NCBI GenBank assembly: GCA_036403155.1
Contig: DASWRM010000021.1
Location: 1-46,618, forward strand
DNA from: Gaiellales bacterium
Lineage (GTDB): Bacteria; Actinomycetota; Thermoleophilia; Gaiellales; JAICJC01
DNA length: 46,618 bases
Reading direction: 5' to 3'
Shown here: one piece after another, positions 1 through 6,393 of the stretch
How the letters are laid out: the number at the start of each line of letters is the position of its first letter
Numbering within the stretch: the stretch's first letter is position 1
Notes under the pieces: generated by a model
Seen by the model: only the letters and a program-made list of their open reading frames with translations
Database searches by the model: none
What the model was told of the DNA's origin: nothing
Translations under genes and position numbers: made by a program

Positions 1-103
1 CCTGTGGATCGATGTACAGCCGCGTGTCGTCTTGAACATCGACGTCCACGAAGTCCAGCTGAGGCTGGGTCAGGCCGAGACCGTAATGCTCGGAGATGCG
101 CAT
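1..103 (-). CDS. N-terminal end of an uncharacterised protein (truncated by window edge)
   Basis: Reading the minus strand from an ATG at 101-103 gives MRISEHYGLGLTQPQLDF followed by VDVDVQDDTRLYIDP, open to the left edge. The pattern 'LDFVDVD...D(T)xL(Y/F)IDP' resembles, from memory, the start of a family of uncharacterised proteins found in accessory regions; no function is known to me. Only 34 codons are visible and no clear Shine-Dalgarno precedes the ATG. Bases 104-251, upstream of it, hold nothing I can support. Confidence 0.5.
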   Translation of the reverse strand, partial: MRISEHYGLGLTQPQLDFVDVDVQDDTRLYIDPQ

Positions 104-251
104 GACCGCGAAGGATAGAAGCGGTGGGCGCTAGCGGCTTCTGGCGCGAGCGCCCGCTCGAGCCGGAAACGCGGATCGTCTGCATCGGGGACGGGCTCGG
201 CCCGTCGATTCACTCGCCGTCCGGCTGAGCCACACCCTGCGGCGTCGGGTT

Positions 252-1358
252 CTAGTCGCAGAAGTCGGCGATGATGCCGTCGAGGGCGGACACGCAGCGG
301 TCGAGCTGATCGAGGTCGACCCACTCCACCGCGGCGTGGGCGCCTTCCCCGCCGGGGCCGAAGATGACGGTGGGAATGCCGGCAGCGGAGAAGATGGCGC
401 TGTCGGCCCAGCCGATGCCGCCGGTAACGGGCGTCTCTTGGCCGAGCGCTCGGCGAGCAGCCGTCACGATCGGAGCGTGCGCGGCAATCTCGAACGGCTC
501 GCGTACGAGCGCGGTGTGCAGCGTGGCGTCGGCGTCGCCGAGGAGGGCGGCTAGCTCCGCTTCGACGCTCTCGATCGTCTCGCCGGGGAGCGTGCGCCGC
601 TCGAGTTGGAGGCGGCACGACTCGGGATAGGTCGAGAGCTCGCGGCCGCCGTCGATGATGGACGCGTGGATCGAGCCCGGGCCGAGCAGCGGATGGCCCG
701 GGCGCCCGTTCAGCTCGGCGGCGAAGTGGTCGAGCTCGACCAGGATTGGGCCCATGCGAGCAATGGCATCGATGCCGTCCTCCGGCCGCGACCCGTGTGC
801 GGCGCGGCCGCGGACGACGATCTCGTGCCAGGTGAAGCCCTTGTGCGCGATCGCGATGGTGATCTCGGCGCCGGTGGGCTCGGTGACGATCGCGGCGTCG
901 GCCCGCACCGACTCGGCGACAGCCTGGGCGCCGACCGAGGCGAACTCCTCGTCGCAGACGGCGGCAATGATGACGTCGCCCGCAACGCCCCGCTCGGCGA
1001 CGTTGGTGGCAGCCACCATGATGGCGGCCAGGCCGGCCTTCATGTCGTACGCACCGCGGCCGTAGAGGCGGTTTCCCTCGACCCGCGGCGAGAAGGGGTC
1101 GGCCATTCCGTCGACCCCAACGACATCCATGTGAGCGTACAGGAGCAGCGAGCGGCCGCCGCCCTTCCCCCGCGCCCGCGCGACGACGTTGGGCCGGCCA
1201 GGCTCGACGTCGGCAATGTCGACCTCGAGGCCGCGCTCGGACAGCCAGCCACCGACGAACCGAGCGATCTCGCCCTCACCCGCGCCGCCCGGAACGAGGC
1301 TGGGATTGATCGAGTCGATGGCGACGAGGTCAGCCAATAGCGCTCGGGCATCCTCCAC
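252..1358 (-). CDS. M20 family metallopeptidase (ArgE/DapE/CPG2-like)
   Basis: Predicted 368-aa cytoplasmic di-zinc amidohydrolase that removes an acyl or aminoacyl group from an amino-acid-type substrate; the exact substrate cannot be told. Visible M20 motifs: LLLYAHMDVV (His76, Asp78), GRGAYDMKAG (bridging Asp105), CDEEFAS (Glu137/138, catalytic base and ligand), TEPTGAEI (Glu160) and GEGAHAAVEW near the C-terminus (last His ligand). The dimerisation lid lies between, around HKGFTWHEIVVRGRAAHGS. I take the GTG at 1356-1358 as start because GGTAGG lies about 10 bases upstream and the nearby ATGs are out of frame. It is transcribed away from the inserted element to its right. Succinyl-diaminopimelate desuccinylase, acetylornithine deacetylase or a dipeptidase are all possible. 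Confidence 0.85.
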   Translation of the reverse strand: MEDARALLADLVAIDSINPSLVPGGAGEGEIARFVGGWLSERGLEVDIADVEPGRPNVVARARGKGGGRSLLLYAHMDVVGVDGMADPFSPRVEGNRLYGRGAYDMKAGLAAIMVAATNVAERGVAGDVIIAAVCDEEFASVGAQAVAESVRADAAIVTEPTGAEITIAIAHKGFTWHEIVVRGRAAHGSRPEDGIDAIARMGPILVELDHFAAELNGRPGHPLLGPGSIHASIIDGGRELSTYPESCRLQLERRTLPGETIESVEAELAALLGDADATLHTALVREPFEIAAHAPIVTAARRALGQETPVTGGIGWADSAIFSAAGIPTVIFGPGGEGAHAAVEWVDLDQLDRCVSALDGIIADFCD

Positions 1359-1558
1359 GCGATCATCCTACCGACCGGGCTTCGGTCGTGGAATGAGCGA
1401 ATCGCGCACAACCGAGGCGAGGATAGGCGTCGAACACCATCCGGTCCAACGTGCGACCGGCGTGACGGGACTGTGACGTCTAGCTCGCGTTCGGGCGGCG
1501 TAGTGTGGTCTTCACGCCCTTACCGCCCCCGCGGCGTTTCGCCCTCTCTATCTACTCT

Positions 1559-1576
1559 CCCCGGGCCGGTTTGACG
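1559..1576. repeat. Left 18-bp direct repeat
   Basis: CCCCGGGCCGGTTTGACG, identical to 4321-4338. The flanking bases differ on both sides (T1558 against A4320, G1577 against C4339), so the identity is exactly 18 bases. It directly abuts the outer end of the left inverted repeat. Confidence 0.8.
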
Positions 1577-1577
1577 G

Positions 1578-1606
1578 TTATAGGGATTGCGCGAACTCGG
1601 ACAGTG
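1578..1606 (+). repeat. Left terminal inverted repeat (29 bp)
   Basis: Starts TTATAGGG and ends TCGGACAGTG. The reverse complement of 4292-4320 matches at 26 of 29 positions, with mismatches at repeat positions 9, 11 and 19. G1577 can also pair with C4321, extending the repeat by one base into the direct repeat. Confidence 0.75.
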
Positions 1607-1802
1607 GGATTATTCGCGCCGACAGACTGAGCGTTCTCCTGTGTGGCGGGGGTCGCTCGGACGAGCCCGATGTCCTTGGTCATTCATGACCCGTCCGCGA
1701 TATGAAGACGCGGTGGTCTCGGTCAAGCGCATCCAAGGCGGCGTCGTCGGGAAAGTCCTCATCTGCCTCGTGTAGCGTCCAGAGCGCGTGGAAGCTTCAA
1801 TC

Positions 1803-2915
1803 GTGAACGACCCGATCGAGTTCGGGGAACGCGCCATTGCCCTGCTTGACCGGGCCGCCGTCTCCACGAGCTTGAAGTACGCCCTGCTCCTCGGGCTGAT
1901 CGAGTTGGCGCACGAAAGAACGGATTCCCGCGGAGAACCGCCGGACATCGTCACAACCCGCGAGATAGCCATGAAGGTCGCAGAGTTGTACTGGCCTCAA
2001 ACGCGAGCGTTCACCGCCTCGCATACGGGGCAGTCCGCCGTGCTGAAACAGAGCGGCACAGGCCAACTGGCGGTCGTGAGGCAGCTTGGCGAGCTCCGCA
2101 ACCTGCCAAGCATCAAGCCGACCACCACTCTTACGAGGGCGGCCGCGCTCCATCCGATCCACGCTGAACGCGTGCTTCGACGAGTCGAGTGGTCACTGAT
2201 CGTCGACCCCCTCCCTCGACTCCAGCACGTGGGTACGGATGCGCCGTTCATCTACAGCGTTGACTGGACATCCACCGAGCCCGGGTCATCCAAGAACCTG
2301 CCCCGCGCCGTCGTGTTCCTGCCCGGAGCTGGCCGGCATCTGCAGCGGTTGACTGCCCTGCTCCGACCATTGCTCGAACGCCGATGGGCGGATTACGTCG
2401 CCGCCCGGAACTCTGCACTTCTGGACTACGGCCGTCTCGATTCCCACCTATTCGGTCAGATCCGACGTCCGACCGGTAAGTTGATGACCGGTCTCCGCGA
2501 TCTTCAACGCGGAAGTTGCTTCTACTGCCGTACGCCGCTCAGCGGGGCGACGGCAATCGACCACTTCATCCCGTGGTCACTCCACTTCGACGATGGCGCG
2601 TTCAACCTCATCGCTACCCACGCCCGCTGCAATGGCTCCAAGGCCGACCACCTACCGGCCGCAGTCCACGTTGAACGATGGGTGCGACGCTTCGCCGGTT
2701 CCGAACGCGTCGGAATTGAACAGTTGACGAAAGCAACCACCTGGGAGACGAATCCAGCAAGAACACTCAGCATCGCTCGTAGCGTCTACGCGCCGCTACA
2801 ACCAGACTCCCGCCTCTGGATCCATGGAGACAGCTTCGAGGCCGCCGATGCCAAGACGATTCTCCAACTGCTCGCAGCAGCGCCAGCGATCACAGAGGAC
2901 GACACGAACGAGTAG
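1803..2915 (+). CDS. HNH endonuclease domain protein, element cargo
   Basis: A 370-aa protein with a C-terminal treble-clef HNH nuclease fold: CFYC (Cys239, Cys242), AIDHFIPW (Asp253-His254), FNLIATHARCN (Asn268, His273, Cys276-Asn277) and a trailing Lys. These supply two metal-binding Cys pairs and the His-Asn-His/Asn catalytic set expected of an HNH nuclease. The first ~230 residues are helical (SLKYALLLGLIEL near residue 22) and not a domain I recognise; they probably give specificity. I prefer the GTG at 1803 because GGAAG lies 8 bases before it; an in-frame GTG at 1788 would add five residues. Codon use is less GC-biased than in lexA next door. A restriction or abortive-infection nuclease is the natural guess. 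A 29-codon ORF just upstream (1686-1775) is too weak to call. Confidence 0.75.
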   Translation: MNDPIEFGERAIALLDRAAVSTSLKYALLLGLIELAHERTDSRGEPPDIVTTREIAMKVAELYWPQTRAFTASHTGQSAVLKQSGTGQLAVVRQLGELRNLPSIKPTTTLTRAAALHPIHAERVLRRVEWSLIVDPLPRLQHVGTDAPFIYSVDWTSTEPGSSKNLPRAVVFLPGAGRHLQRLTALLRPLLERRWADYVAARNSALLDYGRLDSHLFGQIRRPTGKLMTGLRDLQRGSCFYCRTPLSGATAIDHFIPWSLHFDDGAFNLIATHARCNGSKADHLPAAVHVERWVRRFAGSERVGIEQLTKATTWETNPARTLSIARSVYAPLQPDSRLWIHGDSFEAADAKTILQLLAAAPAITEDDTNE

Positions 2916-3004
2916 GCAAGAGATGCATCCGCCCACGCAGCTGCCCGTTCAGAGGTTCAGTAGACCGGGTGCGCGCGCTCTCTATTTCGGGCTGCCGCTA
3001 GCCT

Positions 3005-3661
3005 GTGGTTCAGGGGCTGGACGGGCCATGCGGACCGCATGACCGAGCGCTCGGCCGCTCAAGTCTTCCGAACATCCACCGCAGGGGTGTCAACCTCGCA
3101 ATCCGAGCGGATGTGGAGGAGATCCTAGAAGCACTGGGCATCGAGAAGCCGTGGGGCCAGATCACGGCAATGGCCGGTCGCGCGGGATTTGGGTCACTGC
3201 CACTCGAGGGTGCGTTCAAAGACGCAGCAACTGAACGGCACACTGCGGCACACCAAGCGGCAGCGGGTGTGGAGGTTCCTGATCTGGTGGATCACCTCCG
3301 AAACATCAGGGCGATTGCGCTCGGGTTCGACGTACTTGCAAGTAGAGGCGGCCAACGGCTGCTGGAGGGGGACATGCGGGTAGCGCACGGTACGGGCGCA
3401 ATCCGCGCGAGCCACTTAGAATTACGGTTCGTGTCGGCCGTCGGCTCCAAGTGGGTCGACAAGAGCGAACGAGCAGTGAGAGCCCGCCGGCGACACGACT
3501 CAAAGGAGCAAGCGATACTAGAAGCCATGAGCATCGCCCGGGCGAGCCGTAATCCGGTCGTCTGCCTAGGGTCGGACGGTCGCGCCATTCAGTGGTTCAC
3601 GACAGATCTAGAGTGGATCCTCTACACCCGGCACCCGAGGGACACTGGATGCGATGAGTGA
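3005..3661 (+). CDS. Putative HEPN-domain ribonuclease (RiboL-PSP-HEPN-like)
   Basis: A 218-aa protein with an R-x4-H motif (Arg78-HTAA-His83) inside a helical segment, followed by a helix DLVDHLRNIRAIALGFDVLA. This layout resembles HEPN RNases such as the RiboL-PSP-HEPN group, where the Arg and His form the active site across a dimer. The last ~100 residues, containing a conserved-looking FVSAVGSKWVDKSERAV stretch, are unknown to me. The only upstream start is the GTG at 3005, directly after an in-frame TAG; a later GTG at 'RRG|VNLAIRAD' would drop ~28 poorly structured residues and may be the true start. The final codons overlap the next gene by 8 bases, implying translational coupling. HEPN assignment is from motif and helix pattern only. 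Confidence 0.55.
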   Translation: MVQGLDGPCGPHDRALGRSSLPNIHRRGVNLAIRADVEEILEALGIEKPWGQITAMAGRAGFGSLPLEGAFKDAATERHTAAHQAAAGVEVPDLVDHLRNIRAIALGFDVLASRGGQRLLEGDMRVAHGTGAIRASHLELRFVSAVGSKWVDKSERAVRARRRHDSKEQAILEAMSIARASRNPVVCLGSDGRAIQWFTTDLEWILYTRHPRDTGCDE

Positions 3662-4223
3662 AGCCCCGTTGGCGGTGGGGCGCCGCGTCATAGTCACTGG
3701 GCTGGCCGGGTCCGGGAAGAGCACGTTCGCGCTCGCGCTGGCTGCCAAGACCGGCTTGCCGGTCATTCATCTCGACCTCCACTTCTGGAAGCCCGGCTGG
3801 GTTGCACCCTCGGAGACCGAGTGGCGCGAGAAGCAACGTGGCGTTCTCGCCGGTGACGCGTGGATCGCGGACGGCAACTACGACGAGACGCTCGATCTCA
3901 GACTCGAACGCGCGGACACCGTTGTGGTTCTCGACATGCCTTGGTGGCTTTGCGCAGGACGCGCATTCCGGCGCGGCTTCCGAATGCCGGATGAGTTGCC
4001 CGAAGGATGCATCTATTCGCGCCGGCTGCGGCTACGCGATGAGTGGCGTTTGGCCATGCGCATCTGGCGGAAACGCCGGTCAGAACCGGACGGCGAACGC
4101 GAGATCGTCTCGCGGCACGGGCAGCATGCGGCCGTTTATGTGCTCCGCTCCAAGCGGGCGACCAGGGAGTTTCTCGACGGTCTTGACGCCGGGCATTTGA
4201 AGGCTGTGAGACCCGGGCTCTGA
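3654..4223 (+). CDS. P-loop nucleoside/nucleotide kinase-like protein (FlaR/adenylate-kinase-like)
   Basis: A 189-aa protein with a Walker A loop GLAGSGKST (residues 16-24), followed by PVIHLDLHFWKPGW and then DAWIADGNYDETLDLRL, VVLDMPWW and an Arg-rich lid region (RAFRRGFR, RKRRSEPDG). This is the layout of the family often annotated 'DNA topology modulation protein FlaR' or AAA/adenylate-kinase-like; the true substrate is not established for most members. The ATG at 3654 overlaps the HEPN gene's end (ATGAGTGA), so the two are probably translated together. It is the last gene inside the inverted repeats, leaving 68 bases to the right repeat. Confidence 0.75.
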   Translation: MSEAPLAVGRRVIVTGLAGSGKSTFALALAAKTGLPVIHLDLHFWKPGWVAPSETEWREKQRGVLAGDAWIADGNYDETLDLRLERADTVVVLDMPWWLCAGRAFRRGFRMPDELPEGCIYSRRLRLRDEWRLAMRIWRKRRSEPDGEREIVSRHGQHAAVYVLRSKRATREFLDGLDAGHLKAVRPGL

Positions 4224-4291
4224 CCGGAATGCTCGCACATGCTCTTGGCGGCCGTTCGCCCGATGCGGTGCGGGTCTGCCGTAAGGAGTCA

Positions 4292-4320
4292 CACTGTCCG
4301 ACTTCGCGCGACCCCTATAA
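4292..4320 (-). repeat. Right terminal inverted repeat (29 bp)
   Basis: Inverted, 26/29 matching copy of 1578-1606; reads CACTGTCCGA... to ...CCCCTATAA on the plus strand. It ends immediately before the right direct repeat. Confidence 0.75.
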
Positions 4321-4338
4321 CCCCGGGCCGGTTTGACG
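4321..4338. repeat. Right 18-bp direct repeat, overlapping the lexA -35 element
   Basis: Identical to 1559-1576. Its last six bases, TTGACG, form the likely -35 hexamer of the lexA promoter, so the copy next to lexA is probably the functional one. Confidence 0.8.
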
Positions 4339-4383
4339 CCGTCCGATCGCTCTGGCACACTATGACTCCGAACACACGTTCGG
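4333..4383 (+). promoter_or_regulatory. lexA promoter with SOS box
   Basis: TTGACG (4333-4338) and CACACT (4356-4361) are spaced by 17 bases and make a plausible sigma-70-type promoter. Just downstream, CCGAACACACGTTCGG (4368-4383) is a perfect palindrome with the GAAC-N4-GTTC core of the Gram-positive/actinobacterial LexA operator. This predicts that LexA represses its own gene and is relieved by DNA damage. Confidence 0.85.
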
Positions 4384-4398
4384 ACAAAGGAGTCGGTT

Positions 4399-5028
4399 GT
4401 GGAGCTATCACCAAGACAGCGCGAGATCCTCGAATTCGTCAACAGCCACGTCGATGCGAACGGCTATCCGCCGACGGTGCGCGAGATCGGGCAGGCCGTC
4501 GGCCTGACCTCGCCCTCGACGGTGCACGCGCACCTCGCGCGGCTCGAGAGCTCCGGCCTGATCCGCCGTGACCGCACCAAGCCGCGTGCGCTCGAGGTGA
4601 TCGAGGGCGGCCGTGGTCGCGACCGTGCCGCCGTGCAGGTCGACCTTCCCAGCCGTACCACCATGCTTCCGCTCGTCGGCGATGTCGCCGCGGGCGCGGG
4701 ACTCATCGCCGAGGAGCGCGTCGAGGACATGGTCGCGATCCCCGACCAGCTCTGTGCGGACGCCGACTTCCTGCTCACGATCAACGGCGACAGCATGATC
4801 AACGCCGGCATCCTCGACGGCGACCTCGTCGTCGTCCGCAAGCAGGACGACGCCCGCAACGGGGAGATCGTGGTTGCCCTGATGGGCGACGAGGACGCGA
4901 CCGTGAAGCGGTTCTTCCGAGAGTCGGGCCGCGTGCGCCTGCAGCCCGAGAACGACGACATGGAGCCGATGTTCCCCGAGCAGGTCCGGATCCTGGGCGT
5001 TGTCAAGGCGGTGCTCCGGAGGCTATGA
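4399..5028 (+). CDS. lexA: LexA, SOS transcriptional repressor
   Basis: A 209-aa LexA. The N-terminal winged helix-turn-helix (residues 1-65) contains NGYPPTVREIGQAVGL and SPSTVHAHLARLE. The C-terminal S24 peptidase-like domain has the self-cleavage Ala98-Gly99 in DVAAGAG, catalytic Ser132 in NGDSMINAGI and Lys170 in DATVKRFF. On DNA damage RecA filaments trigger autocleavage and derepress SOS genes. The GTG start at 4399 follows a strong AAAGGAG (4387-4393). The upstream operator predicts autoregulation. Length and motifs are typical, with nothing missing. The stop overlaps the next start as ATGA. Confidence 0.97.
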   Translation: MELSPRQREILEFVNSHVDANGYPPTVREIGQAVGLTSPSTVHAHLARLESSGLIRRDRTKPRALEVIEGGRGRDRAAVQVDLPSRTTMLPLVGDVAAGAGLIAEERVEDMVAIPDQLCADADFLLTINGDSMINAGILDGDLVVVRKQDDARNGEIVVALMGDEDATVKRFFRESGRVRLQPENDDMEPMFPEQVRILGVVKAVLRRL

Positions 5029-5270
5029 GCCCGGTCCGGACAGTCGACGACGCCTTCGGGCCGACGCTCGACGAGGTGATCGTGGCCGCGCTCAGGCGGG
5101 CCGCTCGCCCCGCCCGCTCGGCGATCTGTCCGGTATGCGAAGGAACGATGCGGCGGCTCGGCGACGCGGCCGGCGGGATGCCGCCGAGCGACCCGCTGGT
5201 GTGCGGTGAGTGCGGCAGCACGATCGAGGACGCTCAGCCGGCTCACTCCCAGCTCCGCCTGGTCGCCTGA
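5025..5270 (+). CDS. Small zinc-ribbon protein coupled to lexA
   Basis: An 81-aa protein with two Cys pairs, CPVC (Cys35, Cys38) and CGEC (Cys60, Cys63), spaced as in a zinc ribbon, after an N-terminal helix (TLDEVIVAALRRA). Its ATG overlaps the lexA stop (ATGA), so it is probably translated with LexA and under the same SOS control. No enzymatic motif is present. It may bind nucleic acid or a protein partner, but I do not recognise a named family. Confidence 0.7.
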   Translation: MSPVRTVDDAFGPTLDEVIVAALRRAARPARSAICPVCEGTMRRLGDAAGGMPPSDPLVCGECGSTIEDAQPAHSQLRLVA

Positions 5271-5304
5271 CCGGCGCCGGCGGCATCCCGCCGCCTGCCA
5301 CAAT

Positions 5305-6393
5305 GTGGCGGTGAGAACGCGGCGCGAGTTCCTCGCCTCGGCGAGCCTGCTGCTGGCCGGTGCTGGATGCCTTGGCCGTGGCGGCTCCAGCGTCGAGACA
5401 TTCGGCGCCGGATTCGTCTCCCACGACCAGAAGCTCGAGAAGCGCCTCCACCTGGTCGCGGCCGGCAACGAGGTACCCGCCTTCGCCGTGTCCGAGTACC
5501 AGGGGCGCACCGGCGTCCAGGTCGACACCGAGTCCACGGGCTCGGACGAGGCGCTGCTGCTGCGGCTTGCCGCCGGTGGCTACGGAGACTTCGACATCAT
5601 CATGGTCGGCGCCGACTCACTCGGCTACCTCGTCCAATCCGGGCAGGTCGAACCCATCGCGCGCAGCCTCGTCCCCGGGCTGTCGCTCCTGCAACCGCCC
5701 TTCGACGACTCGCCGGACGACGGCGGCCTCCGCCACGATGTGCCCGCCTGGTATGAGACGGTCGGCGTGGCCGCCCAGACCGACGCGCCGCTCGCAGCCG
5801 ACAGCTGGGTCGCCTTCTTCGGCCTTGCCGAACAGGAGCCCGGCCGCGTCGTGGTGCCCGACGACCCCAACCAGGTGATCGGTGCGACGCTCGTCTCGCT
5901 CGGCCACGCCTGGGACAGCGACTCGAGCGGTGACCTCGACGACGCGGGCGCCCGCCTGCAGGAGGTGTTCGCCGGCCTGCGCGTGCTGGGACGCCGCGCG
6001 CCGTCGTCGGTCGCCCCCGGACACCGGCCGCTCGCCGCGATCGCCAACTCCCAGGACTATCGGGTCCCGCCCGGCGGCGTTCGCTTCTTCCTCCCGGAAG
6101 AGGGCACGGCGCTGACCGTGCGAAGCTACTGCATTCCCGTCTATGCACCCCATCCGGTCGCCGCACATGCCTGGCTTCAGAACTGGTTGCAGCCGGTCGT
6201 CGAGGCCGGGTCGATGTCCGAGCTGCACGTCTCGGTGCCGCTCGCCCAGGCCCGGACGCTCGCCGACCCCGCACTCGGCGCCAACCAGGCGATCTGCCCG
6301 CCCCTGGCTGCGCTGGCCGCGTCGGTCCAGCCGGTCATCTCCGCTGACGGCGCGGCCGCCCGCGAGCAGATCTGGTCGGAGCTGACGGCATGA
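5305..6393 (+). CDS. Exported substrate-binding protein (PotD/spermidine-putrescine type)
   Basis: About 362 aa. The N-terminus VRTRREFLASASLLLAGAGC has a twin-arginine motif (TRREFL), a hydrophobic stretch and a Cys suited to lipid attachment, though the lipobox is not canonical. The body resembles periplasmic polyamine/Fe-type binding proteins: EVPAFAVSEYQGRTGVQV, YGDFDIIMVGADSLGYLVQ, then a hinge region and PVYAPHPVAAHAWLQNWLQP near the end. I chose the GTG at 5305 (GTG at 5311 is also possible); earlier in-frame starts would precede the signal sequence. No permease or ATPase is adjacent, so it either serves a distant transporter or has another role. The stop overlaps the next start (ATGA). 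Confidence 0.75.
   Translation: MAVRTRREFLASASLLLAGAGCLGRGGSSVETFGAGFVSHDQKLEKRLHLVAAGNEVPAFAVSEYQGRTGVQVDTESTGSDEALLLRLAAGGYGDFDIIMVGADSLGYLVQSGQVEPIARSLVPGLSLLQPPFDDSPDDGGLRHDVPAWYETVGVAAQTDAPLAADSWVAFFGLAEQEPGRVVVPDDPNQVIGATLVSLGHAWDSDSSGDLDDAGARLQEVFAGLRVLGRRAPSSVAPGHRPLAAIANSQDYRVPPGGVRFFLPEEGTALTVRSYCIPVYAPHPVAAHAWLQNWLQPVVEAGSMSELHVSVPLAQARTLADPALGANQAICPPLAALAASVQPVISADGAAAREQIWSELTA

Follow-up and report, generated by a model that had tools for sequence, protein, structure and literature searches.

Our analysis has shown that, in a Gaiellales bacterium, the promoter of lexA, the master switch of the DNA-damage (SOS) response, holds 2.7 kb of foreign DNA with transposon-like ends and three genes, and that this DNA encodes no recombinase. 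The genome under study (G000) is that of an uncultured actinobacterium, and the window is positions 1 to 46,618 of its contig DASWRM010000021.1. We tentatively read positions 1577-4320 as a non-autonomous element, mobilised in trans, flanked by a duplication of 15-18 bp and targeted to the lexA promoter, a reading that we place just short of an even call. In the sister species, a junction at the same base is followed by different genes, which suggests that the lexA promoter may be a preferred landing site.

Results

The interior of the element is AT-richer than its surroundings, as an earlier note on this DNA had stated: its GC content is 63.2%, whereas the window has 71.3% and the flanks have 69-72%. 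Likewise, the three cargo genes have a GC3 of 0.67-0.76, and the neighbouring M20 peptidase gene and lexA one of 0.88-0.89. The composition of the interior is therefore foreign. The same note had described long inverted repeats and perfect 18-bp direct repeats of unusual length, and both descriptions hold (Table 1). The inverted repeats stand flush against the direct repeats and extend to about 47 bp when gaps are allowed. When the region was simulated 60 times with a first-order Markov model, no flush pair of direct and inverted repeats summed to more than 28, versus 39 observed. At the left junction the sequence reads TTTGACG/GTTATAGGG and at the right CCTATAAC/CCCCGGG; since one base overlaps the terminal repeat at each junction, the true duplication is 15-18 bp. 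The termini of the element are G(G)TTATAGGG..CCCTATAAC(C), that is, ends of the GGTTATAGGG type, GG(T)TATAGGG. As in non-autonomous transposons with terminal inverted repeats, these ends are bordered by a target duplication and enclose no transposase. Pfam, NCBIfam and PHROGs profiles found no recombinase domain in the element, in agreement with the earlier reading of the letters.

Table 1. Features of the element and of the lexA promoter (positions in the window).
Feature	Position	Strand	Detail
Left direct repeat copy, CCCCGGGCCGGTTTGACG	1559..1576	+	18 bp; target duplication or att core
Left terminal inverted repeat, GGTTATAGGGATTGCGCGAACTCGGACAGTGGGA	1576..1609	+	30/34 pairs with right end
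Cargo 1, 375-aa HNH endonuclease-domain protein	1788..2915	+	HNH_4, above cut-off
Cargo 2, 218-aa protein, weak C-terminal DUF2188 match	3005..3661	+	DUF2188, sub-threshold
Cargo 3, 189-aa P-loop kinase	3654..4223	+	Nearest PRK08118, 121 bits
Right terminal inverted repeat, minus strand reads GGTTATAGGGGTCGCGCGAAGTCGGACAGTGTGA	4289..4322	-	34 nt, 88%
Right direct repeat copy	4321..4338	+	18 bp, 100% identical to left copy
lexA -35 hexamer, TTGACG	4333-4338	+	Last six bases of right 18-mer
Native lexA promoter 3′ of insertion point, spacer CCGTCCGATCGCTCTGG	4339..4361	+	Sequence; conservation in 40 loci
-10-like CACACT	4356-4361	+	Sequence
LexA box CGAACACACGTTCG, intact	4369..4382	+	Sole exact match in window
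lexA	4399..5028	+	TIGR00498, 218 bits

Two of the three cargo assignments made earlier, the HNH nuclease and the P-loop kinase, were confirmed by profile matches. The HNH cargo belongs to a family of solo genes that occurs in 18 of 396 sampled Actinomycetota. Its homologues have no neighbour gene common to all, so the idea of a cargo system fails, and no comparable pair of direct and inverted repeats was seen at 16 loci that carry them. Homologues were absent from phages and viral contigs, and plasmids gave distant ones only. The second cargo protein had been called HEPN-like. This was not supported, as the protein shows only the C-terminal match given in Table 1 and its single-sequence fold was uninformative (pLDDT 35). 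It does match a candidate defence profile, PDC-S16 (E 6e-5), and has no homologue among the 396 genomes of the phylum. The profile nearest to the third protein is named 'DNA topology modulation protein', and the score lies below its 215-bit cut-off. At the DNA level this gene matches one from a different family of the order (L003 1501-2038) at 78% identity, and the homology sets in at the start of the ORF. Such likeness across families may reflect either recent transfer or strong constraint.

The right copy of the direct repeat was said to contain the lexA -35 hexamer and to leave the promoter intact, and this is what we found: everything downstream of the 18-mer is untouched, the LexA box included. 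Across the order, TTGACG is kept at lexA, and the promoter consensus at most loci is TTGACGCCGTCCG..TAnnnT..CGAACANNNGTTCG. Forty other lexA loci of the order, each searched over 1.2 to 17.5 kb upstream, carry no upstream copy of the -35 region; such a copy is thus present in 2/2 members of the genus versus 0/40 of the other loci. lexA and its downstream neighbours are collinear in this genome, in the sister species and in another genome of the family (G004), and the upstream side differs in all three. In no relative did we find the left flank of the element next to lexA. Since that flank is missing there and the 40 loci carry the -35 region only once, only the right side of the element has an empty counterpart.

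A link between cargo activity and the SOS response had also been suggested. No exact LexA box lies within the element; the only one in the window is downstream of it, and the cargo genes are upstream of the lexA promoter, so the idea that SOS controls the cargo has no support. The cargo is, at most, adjacent to the SOS control gene.

The sole other congeneric genome in the collections used is JAICYJ01, Thermoleophilia bacterium LS_ISSM_2_bin.20 (G001). Like G000, it is a fragmented draft assembly (about 150 and 79 contigs, respectively). On its contig C101 (L014:341-379), GCGGTTTGACG is followed by GGTTATAGGGAATGCGGGAAGTCGGACA, with the junction at the same base as in G000. This junction comprises 12/16 bp of the direct repeat and 25/28 bp of the left end, and is placed 8.6 kb upstream of lexA. 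The first 28 bp of the G000 left end match GGTTATAGGGAATGCGGGAAGTCGGACA; the likeness stops about 28 bp into the element, beyond which the interiors are unrelated, and the left flanks have no significant similarity. The 8.6 kb before lexA in G001 encode PCYCGC, ArsR-rhodanese, metallo-beta-lactamase-fold, MFS, methyltransferase, LuxR, SnoaL, DsrE and O-methyltransferase proteins, with no recombinase among them. A right inverted repeat is missing from G001. Instead, 61 bp of the sequence upstream of lexA occur a second time on the lexA side (87%), and this stretch is not conserved between G000 and G001. The two species also diverge in the outer half of the direct repeat; both have the same inner half, CGGTTTGACG, and the same flank, CCGTCCGAT. 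The 61-bp repeat occupies L014 291-351 and 8918-8978, and most differences between its copies fall in one 9-base block between near-perfect stretches. Hence, the same ends around other cargo, a check put forward in the earlier note, were found once, as a left end only.

Genomes of the order (129) and of the class (399) were searched for the end sequence at a tolerance of 3 mismatches or fewer. It was seen only at the lexA genes of G000 and G001 and, barring one chance match, was absent from the 397 other genomes of the class; none of these searches placed it beside another target gene. The one match, with 3 mismatches in genome G003, lies inside a coding region and was rejected. No autonomous element with the same ends was found in the 399 class genomes or, by exact pattern, in viral contigs, and plasmids and phages gave no convincing match to the ends. 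Three end-plus-core matches in viral contigs are AT-rich and were read as chance. The genome-wide enzyme search covered Cas1, rve and Phage_integrase. Cas1 (PF01867) is absent from G000, G001 and three other family genomes (G002-G004). The rve transposase (PF00665) is absent from G000, and its matches in G001 lack corresponding ends. Tyrosine recombinases (Phage_integrase) are present in both genomes; the ends and core are absent around their loci. A genome-encoded recombinase with matching ends, which the earlier note had proposed to look for, was therefore not found at the rve or Phage_integrase loci. Multi-copy repeated elements often fail to assemble in draft genomes.

Discussion

The reading that we favour, a non-autonomous element moved in trans, takes the two inverted repeats as sites recognised by a recombinase whose gene is not in the element. 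This enzyme would make a wide staggered cut, repair of which would duplicate 15-18 bp of the target. Insertion would occur at a single place, directly after the lexA -35 hexamer. We infer that the enzyme recognises the conserved core promoter of lexA, right of the cut, and that the duplicated bases are mostly passive, because the two species disagree in the outer half of the repeat and agree in its inner half and in the flank. Insertion would be tolerated because the -35, spacer, -10 and LexA box stay together and lexA keeps working. The main obstacle to this reading is the right side of the sister locus, which needs a later rearrangement, as plain transposon duplication gives no 61-bp copy. 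It also has against it that our searches of both genomes found no autonomous copy and no matching recombinase, although repeated elements are often lost from draft assemblies such as these. Further, site specificity rests on two cases, possibly one ancestral insertion, because there are two species only and no clean empty site.

The earlier note had left a choice between a unit moved in trans and a site-specific element with the 18-mer as its att site. The same-base junction in the sister species supports either one. In the second case, a tyrosine or serine recombinase acting in trans would have used the 18-mer as an att core common to the element and the lexA promoter; the inverted repeats would be attP arms, and the promoter half carried by the element would restore lexA. 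One such step would give both the exact 18-bp repeat of G000 and the imperfect 61-bp repeat of G001, since att homology can have any length. It would also explain the identical crossover point and the missing right inverted repeat of G001, and both genomes have tyrosine recombinases. We rank it above the transposon reading as an account of the G001 locus. Nevertheless, it neither needs nor explains the 34-bp inverted repeats of G000. The carried copy would have to come from a very near relative, because the upstream 61 bp is unlike in the two species, and no tyrosine-recombinase locus with matching ends or core was found. Overall, we consider att-type integration unlikely, while giving it real weight.

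The same attachment base in two congeneric species could also be given by one ancestral event. G000 would have kept the element, and in G001 the right end would have disappeared and the interior been rearranged, with gene conversion or recombination with another allele giving its 61-bp repeat; lexA would then not be a preferred site. The shared base and the 40 other lexA loci of the order that lack such a repeat are consistent with this, but the two species have no significant similarity in the left flank or in the interior past 28 bp, and their direct repeats disagree in the outer half. Moreover, the perfect match of the two 18-mers in G000 suggests a recent event in that genome. A single insertion in the genus thus appears improbable to us.

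Casposons, moved by a Cas1-type casposase, have terminal inverted repeats, 14-15-bp duplications able to overlap these repeats, HNH cargo and targeting by a conserved flank (PMC4046053, PMC4150552, PMC6614799), and our element resembles them in duplication length, end overlap, HNH cargo and flank-anchored targeting. In addition, 9/11 bases of the M. mazei casposon end GGGATATAGG.. (PMC10359463) align with GGGTTATAGGG, with one more G as in G001, although this is one post-hoc comparison. The duplication of 15-18 bp reaches the casposon range at its lower bound only. The element has no cas1 or polB, the genome and its family have no cas1, and the HNH cargo is a member of a family of solo genes in Actinomycetota. 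The target here is a promoter, whereas the casposons characterised so far are located at tRNA genes (PMC6614799, PMC6977970). A casposon derivative is therefore a long shot. Chance or an assembly artefact is very hard to credit: both genomes are fragmented drafts, but the simulations and the independent junction in G001 speak against it, and the 141-base overlap between contigs of the G000 assembly is longer than the repeats.

The element was also compared with other known systems. Duplications of 15-17 bp in IS1202 and of about 15 bp in some IS481 members (PMC10045372) bring the 15-18 bp seen here within range. However, the element has no transposase and G000 has no rve-domain transposase. 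Its ends are GG(T)TATAGGG rather than TG..CA (TGT..ACA). The TGT..ACA ends that are reported for IS481EU occur in the prokaryotic members of the IS1202/IS481 group as well. For casposons and IS1202/IS481 alike, the defining gene is missing. MITE-like and cargo-carrying non-autonomous transposons are similar in that genes unrelated to transposition lie between two related ends with a flanking duplication; in contrast to them, the G000 element is single copy, had no autonomous partner in our searches, has an unusually long duplication and is seen only at lexA. With att-type integrative elements it shares a direct repeat common with the target, a restored promoter and a fixed crossover point in two species. 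It differs from them in containing no integrase, and long inverted repeats just inside the direct repeats are unusual there; no matching att site was found beside the Phage_integrase loci of both genomes.

We can speculate, at a probability well below even, that the element represents an undescribed family of site-specific cassettes in which a wide-stagger recombinase reads the conserved lexA promoter flank and copies the 15-18 bp next to it; each insertion would thus rebuild the promoter, and the cargo could vary. If the favoured reading of a trans-mobilised element is correct, a mobile element that lands in the lexA promoter and keeps it intact would add a new safe harbour to tRNA genes and glmS. 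It would place cargo beside the SOS master gene and point to a wide-stagger recombinase not yet known. Among the titles and abstracts that literature searches listed, none gave a precedent for integration at lexA. The landing-site claim rests for now on two draft genomes of one genus.

Some further observations concern the surroundings of the element. Because positions 1-141 of the window are identical to the final 141 bases of contig C40 of G000, C40 is its left neighbour (assembly overlap). The M20 peptidase gene that adjoins the element (252-1358, minus strand) is an extra copy, with a 76% match to G000:C37:194978-196217; the latter copy and its orthologue on contig C50 of G001 lie in collinear stretches of about 10 kb. 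The region left of the element, with its extra M20 gene, may itself be acquired. Rfam and tRNA scans of positions 1-6000 returned nothing, and no tRNA lies close to the element.

The right terminal repeat (4291-4322) resembles the lexA core promoter (4336-4367), with 19/32 matches to the promoter of its own genome and 22/32 to the G004 promoter, for the most part in one register. The likeness is weak in gapped local-alignment tests, and that the right end may mimic its target promoter is a lead only. Finally, a GTCCG motif directly after the -35 (window 4339-4345; L096-L135) is conserved at lexA in most of the order, in addition to the promoter hexamers and the LexA box, and is possibly a second regulator site or a spacer element.
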